A stretch of DNA of 64,000 bases, taken from positions 1,924,544 through 1,988,543 of the forward strand of contig CH672374.1 of assembly GCA_000153385.1 (NCBI GenBank). Reading direction: 5' to 3'. Below the pieces are notes generated by a model. The model was not told where the DNA came from, did not search any database, and saw only the letters and a program-made list of their open reading frames with translations. Numbering within the stretch: the first letter of the stretch is position 1; every line of letters begins with the position of its first letter. This document shows positions 60,560 to 64,000 of the stretch, in pieces. The DNA comes from Flavobacteria bacterium BBFL7. GTDB taxonomy: Bacteria; Bacteroidota; Bacteroidia; Flavobacteriales; Flavobacteriaceae. Made by a program: the position numbers and the translations under genes.

Positions 60560-60575
60560 TTGTCAGATATGACAA
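60560..60575. promoter_or_regulatory. Inverted repeat upstream of the response regulator, possible Crp/Fnr-type site
   Basis: TTGTCA-GATA-TGACAA, perfect 6-bp arms with overall 16-bp geometry like Crp/Fnr-family sites; 125 bases before the response-regulator ATG. Confidence 0.4.
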
Positions 60576-60598
60576 GTTGACTTTATGAATATTCCATT

Positions 60599-60627
60599 CG
60601 TCGACACTTTTTGGTTATCCGTCGACA
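60599..60627 (+). promoter_or_regulatory. Two CGTCGACA direct repeats 21 bp apart
   Basis: CGTCGACA at 60599-60606 and 60620-60627, two helical turns apart, in the same leader. A possible activator or repressor pair. Confidence 0.4.
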
Positions 60628-60700
60628 GATAAAGGTGCTGTCATCGATATATTTTCTGCAAGCTTAATAATCGTCCTAATTTGCTACTTTATAATTAAAC

Positions 60701-61117
60701 ATGAAAGCACGTAAATTAAAGGTTTTGCTCATAGAAGACGATACTATTGAAGTAATGAAAATGCATAGAGCATTATCTACTTTAAAAGAGGATCATACTA
60801 TAATAGAAGCTAATAATGGAGAGGTAGCATTATCAATTTTAAAACAAAAAGATCAACTACCTGATATTATTTTATTAGATTTAAACATGCCTAAAATCAA
60901 TGGAATTGAATTTTTATCCATTTTGAAAAAGGATGATAGGTTGAAGTATATCCCAACAATCATACTTACAACATCAAATAATCAAAGAGATTTGCTTGCT
61001 TGTTATAATTTGGGAATTGCGGGTTATGTTTTAAAGCCATTGAAATATGAGGAATATGTTGAGAAGATTTCAAGACTAATGTCTTACTGGAGTATTAATG
61101 AATTATTTATTGCCTAA
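60701..61117 (+). CDS. Single-domain response regulator (CheY-like)
   Basis: 138 residues, all receiver domain: acidic pocket Glu12-Asp13, phospho-acceptor Asp60 (LLDLNMP), Thr90 and Lys112 (LKPL). There is no output domain, so it acts by protein contact. It opens a tight cluster with an H-NOX sensor (5-base gap), histidine kinase and FIST protein, and is the likely partner of that kinase. Confidence 0.93.
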   Translation: MKARKLKVLLIEDDTIEVMKMHRALSTLKEDHTIIEANNGEVALSILKQKDQLPDIILLDLNMPKINGIEFLSILKKDDRLKYIPTIILTTSNNQRDLLACYNLGIAGYVLKPLKYEEYVEKISRLMSYWSINELFIA

Positions 61118-61122
61118 ATGAT

Positions 61123-61662
61123 ATGAAAGGAATAGTTTTTACAGAGTTTCTGGATTTAGTTGAAGATAAATTTGGCCTGGAAATGGTAGATCAAATTATA
61201 GAACAGTCAGAGCTGCCATCTAATGGTGTTTATACATCTATAGGAACATATAGTTTCTCTGAAATGTTGCAACTGATTCAAAATTTAAGTTCTAATACAG
61301 GTTTAAGTGTTGATCAATTACTACTGGTATATGGAGAGCACTTTTTTAATGTTATTGAGAATAGCTATCCTGGACTTTTAGCTACTTATAAAGATCCTAT
61401 TGAGATGCTTTCTTCAATTGAAAATCATATTCATATTGAAGTTAGAAAAATTTATCCTGATGCTGAGTTGCCTACATTTGAGGTGCTGGAAAAGTCCGAT
61501 AATCATTTAATTATGATTTATAAGTCTAGTAGAGCGATGCATCATTTTGGATTAGGATTAATGAATAGAACTTTTGCTCACTTTGAAATGGCCTCAAATA
61601 TTATCATTGATAAATTAAAAGAGGATGGAACTGAAGTAAAATTTACTATTCATAAAACTTAA
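61123..61662 (+). CDS. H-NOX (heme nitric oxide/oxygen binding) protein
   Basis: 179 residues, standard for a stand-alone H-NOX. It begins MKGIVFTEFL with the GVYTSIGTY segment. The candidate proximal heme His is 104 (or 102) in NHIHIEVRKIYP. The heme-propionate motif YxSxR is intact as Tyr133, Ser135, Arg137. Such proteins bind NO and switch a partner kinase. Its stop shares a base with the kinase start, a strong sign of coupling. Confidence 0.92.
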   Translation: MKGIVFTEFLDLVEDKFGLEMVDQIIEQSELPSNGVYTSIGTYSFSEMLQLIQNLSSNTGLSVDQLLLVYGEHFFNVIENSYPGLLATYKDPIEMLSSIENHIHIEVRKIYPDAELPTFEVLEKSDNHLIMIYKSSRAMHHFGLGLMNRTFAHFEMASNIIIDKLKEDGTEVKFTIHKT

Positions 61663-63641
61663 TGAGTGGTTCTGACGTAGAAATACTAAAACGAGCACTT
61701 GAGCGAGAAAGAGCAGCTCGTAAACAAGCAGAAAAAATTCTAGAACAAAAGGCGGCAGAATTATATGAGCTTACTCAAAAGCTCAGACATTCTAATGAAA
61801 AGCTAGAAGTACTCATCGATGAAAAAACTTCAGAATTAAATGGAGTTTTTGAAAACATTGTAGATGCTTATGTAGTGACAGATTTGTATGGTAATGTTCT
61901 GAAAATGAATAATCCAGCAATTGATTTGCTAGAAGCTGATTTTACAAATGAATCCATAAACCTTATGGACATTGTAATGCCCAGTGAGTATGAAAATGTA
62001 CTAGAACTGTTTCAAAAATTACTTCACAATGGATCTTTAACTGATGTACACGTTAAAATTCAAACTAAAAATCAACACTTAAAGTTAGTTCATATTAACT
62101 GTAGTATAATTTATGATGCCCAGGGAAAGGCTAAAGCCGCTCAAGGAATTGTAAGAGACATTACTAAAAGTGATGAAGATGAAAAAAAATTAATTGAGTC
62201 CGAAAATAGACTGTCTACTTTAATTTTAAACCTAGAAAACGCGGTTCTATTAGAAGATGAGAATGGGAAGATTGTACTCACAAACCACAAGTTTTGTGAG
62301 TATTTTGAAATCCCTTTAAAACCTGAAGAAATTGTAGGGAATGATTATCATAAAATAAGTGATAATTATAAGTTCTTATTTGATGATCCAGATTATTTTA
62401 TTCAAAGAGTTGATGAGATTTTAAGTCTCAAAAAAATGGTCATAGGTGATGAACTGATCATGAATAATGGGCGGATTTTGGAAAGAGATTTTATTCCTAT
62501 AATAGAAAGTGATAATTATAAAGGTCACCTATGGTCTTATAGGGACGTTACATTAAAACGTTCTTACAGTAAAAGTCTTGAAGCTCAAAAGCAAAAATAC
62601 AGTAGTATTATTGCTAATATGCATTTGGGATTAGTAGAGGTAGATACTGAAGAAAAGATAATTATGGTCAATCAAAGTTTTACCCAAATGAGTGGCTATA
62701 CAGAAGAAGAAGTGGTTGGTCGTAAAGCATCTTCTTTATTTCTCGACTCAGATGACGTCCATATTTTTAAAGAACAAACCAGGAAAAGATTAAGAGGAGA
62801 ATCCAGCTCGTACGAAGTTGTGGTTAATATTAAAAGTAACGAGAGACGACACTGGTTGATAAGTGGAGCCCCTAATTATGATCTTGAAGGAAATGTTACC
62901 GGTTCTATAGGTATTCATTTAGATATTACTGACCTTAAAAACCTAGAAATACAAAAAGAGTTACTACTCGCACAACTAGCAAAAAGTAATGATGAGTTAC
63001 ATGAATATGCACATATCGTATCTCATGATTTAAAAAGTCCTTTACGTAGTATAGATGCTTTAGTAAACTGGCTTAAAGCTGATAACCTTGATAAGTTTGA
63101 TGAAATAAGTTTAAAAAACCTTTCTTTAATAGAAGAAACTTTAGAGAAAATGGAACAACTTATTGGTGATATTCTAGACTATTCTAGTCTTAATTCATCT
63201 AACGAAGAGTTTACAGAAATTGACTGTAATGAATTAGTAGTTGATCTGATTAAAGTAATATATGTGCCTAATCATATTGAGATTAATTTAAAAGGCATAC
63301 TACCTAAAATTAATGGAGATAGAACTAAGGTTAATCAATTGTTTCAGAATTTGTTAAGTAATGCAGTAAAGTTTATTGATAAAGAAAAAGGCATTATAGA
63401 AGTCAGTTGTATTGAATTAGATAATCATTATCAATTTCAAATAAAAGATAATGGTATTGGAATAGATCCAGCTTTTCATGATAAAATATTTAAAATATTT
63501 CATGCTCTTAATAAAAATAAAGACTCTACTGGAATAGGTCTTTCAATAGTTAAAAAGATTGTAGATCTACACCAAGGTAAAATTTGGCTAGAAAGTAAGG
63601 TTGGTGAAGGAACAACATTCTTTTTCACATTAAAAAAATAA
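61662..63641 (+). CDS. Hybrid-free PAS-PAS-PAS histidine kinase, H-NOX-linked
   Basis: 659 residues with no membrane segment. An N-terminal coiled coil (LERERAARKQAEKILEQKAA) of the kind found in H-NOX-associated kinases is followed by three PAS domains (about 65-175, 180-300, 310-430), HisKA with His455 in IVSHDLKSPLRS, and HATPase with NLLSNAVKF, DNGIGI and TGIGLSIVKK. It is a cytoplasmic kinase, expected to be controlled by the H-NOX protein encoded immediately upstream. Confidence 0.95.
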   Translation: MSGSDVEILKRALERERAARKQAEKILEQKAAELYELTQKLRHSNEKLEVLIDEKTSELNGVFENIVDAYVVTDLYGNVLKMNNPAIDLLEADFTNESINLMDIVMPSEYENVLELFQKLLHNGSLTDVHVKIQTKNQHLKLVHINCSIIYDAQGKAKAAQGIVRDITKSDEDEKKLIESENRLSTLILNLENAVLLEDENGKIVLTNHKFCEYFEIPLKPEEIVGNDYHKISDNYKFLFDDPDYFIQRVDEILSLKKMVIGDELIMNNGRILERDFIPIIESDNYKGHLWSYRDVTLKRSYSKSLEAQKQKYSSIIANMHLGLVEVDTEEKIIMVNQSFTQMSGYTEEEVVGRKASSLFLDSDDVHIFKEQTRKRLRGESSSYEVVVNIKSNERRHWLISGAPNYDLEGNVTGSIGIHLDITDLKNLEIQKELLLAQLAKSNDELHEYAHIVSHDLKSPLRSIDALVNWLKADNLDKFDEISLKNLSLIEETLEKMEQLIGDILDYSSLNSSNEEFTEIDCNELVVDLIKVIYVPNHIEINLKGILPKINGDRTKVNQLFQNLLSNAVKFIDKEKGIIEVSCIELDNHYQFQIKDNGIGIDPAFHDKIFKIFHALNKNKDSTGIGLSIVKKIVDLHQGKIWLESKVGEGTTFFFTLKK

Positions 63642-63644
63642 CAA

Positions 63645-64000
63645 ATGATTATTAATCAGCATTTAAAATTAAAAAATCAACCTTGGAAAAATATAGGTGA
63701 TCAAAAGACTTTAAACAATCCTTTGGTGTTAGCTTTTGGAAATAGATTGCTACTAGAATCACCTACTATTTTTGAAGAAGTACTTGCGATGTATCCCGAT
63801 GCTCATATTGTACTAGGTTCTACTAGTGGTGATATCATGGATGATAATGTTAATGATGAATCAATATCTATAACTGCTATAGAGTTCGAGAAAAGTCATT
63901 TCTCTATTAAAACTGCAAATGTACTCAATGAGCAAAAAGATAGTTTTAAAACAGGAAAACATCTTATAGAGCAATTTGATGCAAACGGTTTAAAACATGT
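63645..64000 (+). CDS. FIST-domain protein (NosP-like), N-terminal part, runs off the window
   Basis: Begins at an ATG 3 bases after the kinase stop and stays open to the window edge, 118 complete codons. The segment NNPLVLAFGNRLLLES and the following MYPDAHIVLGSTSGDIMDDNV match the FIST N domain. FIST proteins called NosP bind heme and nitric oxide and control histidine kinases encoded next to them. Placement after the H-NOX-kinase pair suggests the same signal. Heme ligands cannot be judged from the partial sequence. Confidence 0.85.
   Translation, partial: MIINQHLKLKNQPWKNIGDQKTLNNPLVLAFGNRLLLESPTIFEEVLAMYPDAHIVLGSTSGDIMDDNVNDESISITAIEFEKSHFSIKTANVLNEQKDSFKTGKHLIEQFDANGLKH

Follow-up and report, generated by a model that had tools for sequence, protein, structure and literature searches.

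The 3' end of a 64,000-nucleotide stretch of the genome of Flavobacteria bacterium BBFL7 (hereafter the window; G000:C2:1924544-1988543 in a 3.1-Mb genome) carries a compact operon that brings together two unrelated candidate nitric oxide (NO) sensors, an H-NOX protein and a FIST-domain protein, with histidine kinases and phosphotransfer proteins (Table 1). A first-pass annotation, made from the window alone, described four tightly packed genes, in order a single-domain response regulator (RR), an H-NOX with a candidate proximal histidine and an intact YxSxR motif, a soluble triple-PAS histidine kinase (HK1) and a FIST protein. The coordinates, the Pfam matches and the intergenic gaps of 5, -1 and 3 bp bear out this description, as do the domains of HK1 and the residues of H-NOX (H104, Y133-S135-R137). 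The same annotation held that there was one kinase and that the response regulator, having no output domain, must act on a protein. As the window stops within the FIST gene, both statements are artefacts of its end. The operon continues beyond it with three further genes, the first of which encodes a second histidine kinase (HK2, 350 amino acids (aa)), followed by those for an Hpt protein (105 aa) and a REC-LytTR transcription factor (235 aa; PF04397, 68.5 bits), for which there is a conserved LytTR-type operator. The full unit thus comprises seven genes, RR, H-NOX, HK1, FIST, HK2, Hpt and REC-LytTR, with spacings of -1 to 10 bp in BBFL7 and median spacings of -4 to 9 bp among orthologues. HK2 consists of HisKA and HATPase_c without a sensor domain recognised by Pfam. 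After a gap, the REC-LytTR gene is followed by one for a DUF4114 protein sorted by the type IX secretion system (T9SS).

Table 1. Features of the operon in the window (window position = position in locus L004, G000:C2:1983000-2000000, + 58456)
Feature	Position	Strand	Evidence and remarks
Predicted LytTR-type operator, two direct repeats CCATTCGTCGACACTTTTTGGTTATCCGTCGACAGAT, 21-bp period	60594..60630	+	About 70 bp 5' of the RR gene; the window has no other pair of this kind
Single-domain response regulator (REC only)	60701..61117	+	PF00072, 79.5 bits; proposed common acceptor for both kinases
H-NOX gas sensor, predicted NO-selective	61123..61662	+	PF07700, 139.9 bits (Pfam cut-off 25.5)
HK1, soluble PAS-PAS-PAS-HisKA-HATPase_c kinase	61662..63641	+	Pfam; proposed H-NOX partner; solubility predicted from sequence
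FIST protein (FIST_N + FIST_C), 118 N-terminal of 377 aa inside the window	63645..64000, on to ~64778 outside	+	PF08495, 132.8 bits; PF10442, 133.4 bits; each above its Pfam cut-off

Conservation of the seven-gene unit

Among 299 Flavobacteriaceae genomes H-NOX occurs in 105 and FIST in 87, and the two co-occur in 68, as against 30.6 expected (Fisher p 3e-23). They are adjacent and on the same strand in 58 of these 68 genomes (58/299 overall), so that the H-NOX/FIST neighbourhood proposed from the window recurs across the family, and H-NOX precedes FIST in every adjacent pair except that of G253. This arrangement is not due to chance. The distance from H-NOX to FIST is stepped, at about 1.35, 1.73, 2.1 and 2.5 kb, which is consistent with gain and loss of PAS domains in HK1, with about one to four of them across genera.

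All seven genes stand in the same order at 51 of the 57 neighbour loci retrieved; of the remaining six, one (L066) is arranged differently, a contig end interrupts another, and in four the missing genes are all 3'-terminal in the retrieved stretch. The operon also recurs at L169, from a different order of the same class, and at L170-L173, from one large genus within the family, where a distant H-NOX fills the H-NOX slot. A five-gene form, RR-HNOX-HK1-Hpt-LytTR, is present at 19 loci, in genomes that have H-NOX only. A contig search with the FIST protein gave two very close relatives and nothing else; Nonlabens ulvanivorans supplies the closest named genomes, and in one of these (JCM 19298, L006) FIST is seemingly split into 132 and 243 aa by a frameshift or an assembly error.

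The phosphotransfer residues of the unit are likewise retained. Each of D13/D14, D60, T91 and K112 of the single-domain REC is missing from at most one of 77 orthologues (D60 from none); H55 of Hpt is kept in 76/76 and D53 in the REC domain of the LytTR protein in 73/73. The parts of a four-step relay, namely a separate REC, an Hpt and an output regulator, are therefore present with intact phospho-sites, and a probable order of transfer can be proposed from them. REC, Hpt and LytTR are all retained in every operon classified (54/54 seven-gene and 19/19 five-gene forms).

The two sensors and their kinases

The proximal heme histidine of H-NOX (H104 in its own numbering) is kept in 77/77 orthologues, as are Y133 and S135 of the YxSxR motif, R137 being kept in 75/77. 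Position 142, which we matched to Tyr140 of Tt H-NOX by its spacing from YxSxR, is F, L or M and never Tyr in 81 sequences; lacking this distal Tyr, the protein is predicted to be NO-selective and not O2-binding. The nearest solved structures are those of the H-NOX of Kordia algicida (6BDD/6BDE, where the PDB molecule name is aldolase), and the protein is orthologous to this crystallised heme protein (6BDD). Taken with what is known of the family, the intact residues and the orthology make it a well-supported candidate for an NO-binding sensor. The distant H-NOX of L170-L173, of MYGIVNKAIQDLV type, occupies the same operon position and retains the His and YxSxR motifs.

The AlphaFold model of the FIST protein (predicted local distance difference test (pLDDT) score 94.8) has the FIST domain of human FBXO22 as its best PDB fold match; a sequence search of the PDB with it gave no match, and no heme-bound FIST structure was found among its PDB matches. 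The first-pass annotation had likened it to the heme protein NosP, an assignment that we reject: it scores 56.4 bits on the NosP model NF041558, far under the equivalog cut-off of 450, and is for that reason filed here as a FIST-family protein. It shares with NosP an adjacent histidine kinase, as HK2 lies directly 3' and is inherited with it, and its control of HK2 is predicted. NosP acts as an NO sensor in Legionella, Burkholderia and Vibrio (PMC11237717, PMC12570481, PMC6769237), and the FIST of Vibrio cholerae CdpA responds to heme, NO binding by FIST being treated as unproven (PMC8846402). C317 is present in 57/58 and H366 in 56/58 operon FISTs; the protein may bind heme, and NO sensing by it is plausible. 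Away from the operon, four FIST genes stand in tandem in genomes without H-NOX (L163, L164), and a solitary FIST gene without an adjacent kinase, its product 39% identical to the operon FIST, is found on conjugative Legionella plasmids (L167:4476-5642).

FIST and HK2 are both present or both absent in every intact operon examined, while HK1 stays, and in two genomes (L123, L124) FIST and HK2 form a pair at a separate locus. Their joint presence and absence argues that FIST belongs with HK2. Within one genus, the loci L101 and L106 are 86% identical in RR, 88% in H-NOX, 77% in HK1, 77% in Hpt and 92% in LytTR, and only 24% in FIST; their HK2 proteins are 19-33% identical over the first ~120 aligned residues, with 62-83% in the part that begins at the phospho-His helix. 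At both L070:5254-6351 and L101:5009-6103 a distant FIST (~23% identical) sits in the FIST slot, and the N-terminal domain of HK2 is different too. The FIST sensor and the N-terminal part of HK2, its presumed docking region, were exchanged as a block, with retention of the HK2 core, which must address the common regulator; such a swap points to where FIST may dock on its kinase. In a mirror-tree comparison, no pair in the operon shows as strong a distance correlation as H-NOX with the HK1 core (partial r 0.69, RR/Hpt/LytTR removed), which is also the only one with clear support, the other contrasts overlapping zero or hinging on the variable PAS domains.

In a stretch of 35 residues that surrounds the phospho-His, HK1 and HK2 are alike at ~60% of positions, as against 19% for two kinases beside unlinked FIST genes. 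Their consensus at this point (YAHxVSHDLKSPLRSI) is nearly identical and is lacking in those two kinases. This common helix suggests that HK1 and HK2 probably load the same regulator. In some loci a third histidine kinase lies between HK2 and Hpt (L171:3189-4547, minus strand; L173:7920-9212, plus strand), one being GAF-like and one having transmembrane helices. These third kinases also have the HK1/HK2-type helix, so the relay seems to take further inputs.

Operator and predicted targets

The output regulator conforms to the LytTR type in both its DNA-binding domain and the paired direct-repeat operator to which it is predicted to bind; such repeats are a known mode of LytTR regulators, e.g. 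AgrA (PMC4227749). Upstream of 79 operons the period of exact 8-mer repeats peaks at 21 bp (72 counts, with at most 6 at other periods). A position-matrix site lies 5' of 74/79 orthologous operons at a score above 8 (shuffled 99th percentile 3.4), a figure that is partly circular as the matrix was trained on operon promoters, whereas those for targets and operon-less genomes are not. The GTCGAC palindromes in the repeats at 60594-60630 are incidental, given that orthologues vary the base (GTCTAC).

In 80 genomes the exact half-site ATTCGTCKACACTT has 45 matches and its reversed control none. One match falls in the 22 operon-less genomes; of the other 44, the operon promoter accounts for 25, and 10 lie on the same strand 5-24 kb downstream and 9 far away, several of these far ones without a nearby start codon behind them. 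A site directly 3' of the LytTR gene is present in 26/74 loci, compared with 0/59 control stretches. Four sites occur downstream in the BBFL7 genome (L206, G000:C2:1990000-2009900), namely 5' of the DUF4114/T9SS gene, between a gene for a TPR outer-membrane-type protein and a STAS-flippase pair, 5' of a family-4 glycosyltransferase (GT4) gene and 5' of a family-2 glycosyltransferase (GT2) gene; the next 20 kb (L207) hold none. The readable nearby sites of other genomes precede genes for T9SS-type secreted proteins (L208, L232, L237) and, at L226 and L236, for members of the GT4 family already named; a fusion of a response-regulator domain with GT2 (REC-GT2; L213, G175:C1 near 1099600) stands directly behind an operator half-site. 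A two-repeat pattern with three mismatches allowed gave 17 matches in the BBFL7 genome and 22 in its reversed control, and the operator conclusions are drawn from the position-matrix and exact half-site searches only.

The polysaccharide cluster that adjoins the operon (L206:4054-15950) encodes TPR outer-membrane-like, STAS and flippase proteins, GT4, a glycosyl hydrolase, a 1031-aa protein without a Pfam match and GT2, and in outline resembles Pel-type export.

Interpretation and comparison with known systems

We consider it probable that the operon encodes a two-input, Spo0-like relay, in which HK1 and HK2 feed a REC, an Hpt and a LytTR regulator in turn, each step being a separate protein. 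H-NOX would bind NO and control HK1; to judge from Shewanella and Vibrio, autophosphorylation of HK1 is most likely reduced by the NO-bound form. FIST would sense NO and/or heme and control HK2. The two kinases, with their like phospho-acceptor helices, would pass phosphate to the single-domain REC, from which it would reach REC-LytTR by way of Hpt. Phosphorylated LytTR would then bind the direct repeats of 21-bp period 5' of the operon itself, and those preceding neighbouring genes for a T9SS-secreted protein, polysaccharide glycosyltransferases and a flippase, such that a change in NO may reset the expression of surface polysaccharide and adhesins. More tentatively, and with rather less than even confidence, the operon can be seen as a modular hub of Flavobacteriaceae with no fixed number of inputs, into which sensor-kinase pairs such as H-NOX/HK1 and FIST/HK2, and the third kinase of some genera, might be plugged by way of the common acceptor helix, with one REC-Hpt-LytTR core controlling surface polysaccharide and T9SS-secreted protein; it could then be the main NO-responsive surface switch of these marine bacteria, without cyclic di-GMP (c-di-GMP).

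Several observations weigh against the two-input relay as set out above. Kinship among the genomes inflates every count given above. H366, the best candidate heme ligand of FIST, is Tyr in both swapped FISTs, and no FIST heme ligand is established; the low NosP score points the same way. In the mirror-tree comparison FIST correlates only moderately with the N-terminus of HK2 (0.39), and at least as well with H-NOX (0.40). Across the 299 genomes NirK (TIGR02376) and NosZ (TIGR04246) show no positive association with the operon (the copper-nitrite-reductase model draws many weak multicopper-oxidase matches, and above-cut-off matches alone were counted). NosZ is even rarer among operon carriers (15/58 versus 100/194), and the BBFL7 genome has a match to neither. 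Endogenous denitrification is accordingly rejected as the NO source; with NirK not enriched and NosZ depleted in carriers, other organisms are the likelier source.

Some of these points serve an alternative that leaves the relay intact and that we regard as unlikely, though a serious contender: FIST would sense heme or another small ligand, so that the operon integrates NO, through H-NOX, with a different signal. The distance of FIST from the NosP model, the heme-responsive FIST of V. cholerae CdpA with its uncertain NO binding (PMC8846402), and the fact that the ligands of most FIST families are unknown, with no FIST-heme structure among the PDB matches, all speak for it. Set against them are the non-random pairing of FIST with a bona fide H-NOX and the finding that each sensor, where replaced, gave way to a distant protein of its own class and not to another domain; these facts suggest that both sensors report the same kind of signal. 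Dual sensing at one kinase, as put forward in the first-pass annotation, retains its premise of two different candidate NO sensors in one operon, with a conserved pairing. That both regulate HK1, the gene of which does sit between the two sensor genes, is nevertheless highly improbable, and we reject it on gene content and co-inheritance: HK2 lies directly 3' of FIST, the two come and go together while HK1 stays, and the FIST swap altered the N-terminus of HK2 and not HK1. The single-domain REC might instead be a CheY-like effector or a phosphate sink, with HK1 and HK2 phosphorylating REC-LytTR directly and Hpt serving another pathway. Protein targets are common for single-domain REC proteins, and Legionella Hnox2 is accompanied by a kinase and a CheY-like protein whose output is not known (PMC11237717). 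This is improbable in view of the joint retention of REC, Hpt and LytTR in all 54 + 19 operons, as a four-step relay requires, and because, were there no REC intermediate, nothing in the operon could donate phosphate to Hpt.

Part of this picture is already known. In group 1 of the H-NOX genome neighbourhood network (Figure 6 of PMC8738867), FIST is among the genes that at least 20% of genomes have no more than five genes away from hnox, and proteobacteria are known in which the H-NOX and NosP pathways converge; the available part of that network study describes no seven-gene relay, second kinase, operator or target genes. Nor did we find a description of the seven-gene relay, the FIST-HK2 cassette, the operator or its targets in the openly licensed papers searched, where absence is not proof. 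What is known of bacterial NO signalling comes mainly from proteobacteria, and for the most part such signalling has c-di-GMP as its end point. The present operon, widespread and conserved in Bacteroidota, sets two unrelated candidate NO sensors on what is predicted to be one relay, for which there are a defined DNA operator and predicted targets nearby. This makes it a strong candidate for the NO response across a large bacterial family and supplies a likely pathway for a Flavobacteriaceae H-NOX with an existing crystal structure. Questions of long standing thereby become open to test in a single small system: what bacteria gain from having H-NOX as well as FIST, whether the two act additively or in opposition, and what FIST senses.

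In the Spo0 phosphorelay, that of KinA-E, Spo0F, Spo0B and Spo0A, several kinases load one free-standing REC, followed by a phosphotransferase and then a DNA-binding regulator, as proposed here; the present system differs in its kinase inputs, in a true Hpt in place of Spo0B and in its LytTR output. In the genus Shewanella, as is proposed for the present operon, two heme NO sensors have a kinase each, H-NOX with HnoK and NosP with NahK, and converge on common regulators. The H-NOX/HnoK network of Shewanella oneidensis includes HnoB and HnoD (PMC8846402). The genes of the Shewanella systems lie at separate places and the output is through c-di-GMP enzymes, not through the Hpt and LytTR transcription factor of a single operon. 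In the NosP-NahK-NarR operon of Legionella and the NosP-NosK-NosR operon of Burkholderia (PMC11237717, PMC12570481) the FIST gene also adjoins that of a soluble kinase without a sensor domain, whose activity is there FIST-controlled; these operons lack H-NOX, their output is a c-di-GMP enzyme or a degenerate HD-GYP protein, and the FIST of our operon, unlike theirs, falls under the NosP cut-off. H-NOX-HqsK of Vibrio harveyi and V. parahaemolyticus and NosP-VpsS of V. cholerae, both leading to LuxU-LuxO (PMC8738867, PMC6769237), share with the present operon the passage from sensor-controlled kinases through an Hpt to a transcriptional regulator, but employ hybrid kinases with a built-in REC, one NO sensor per described circuit, and LuxO where LytTR stands here.

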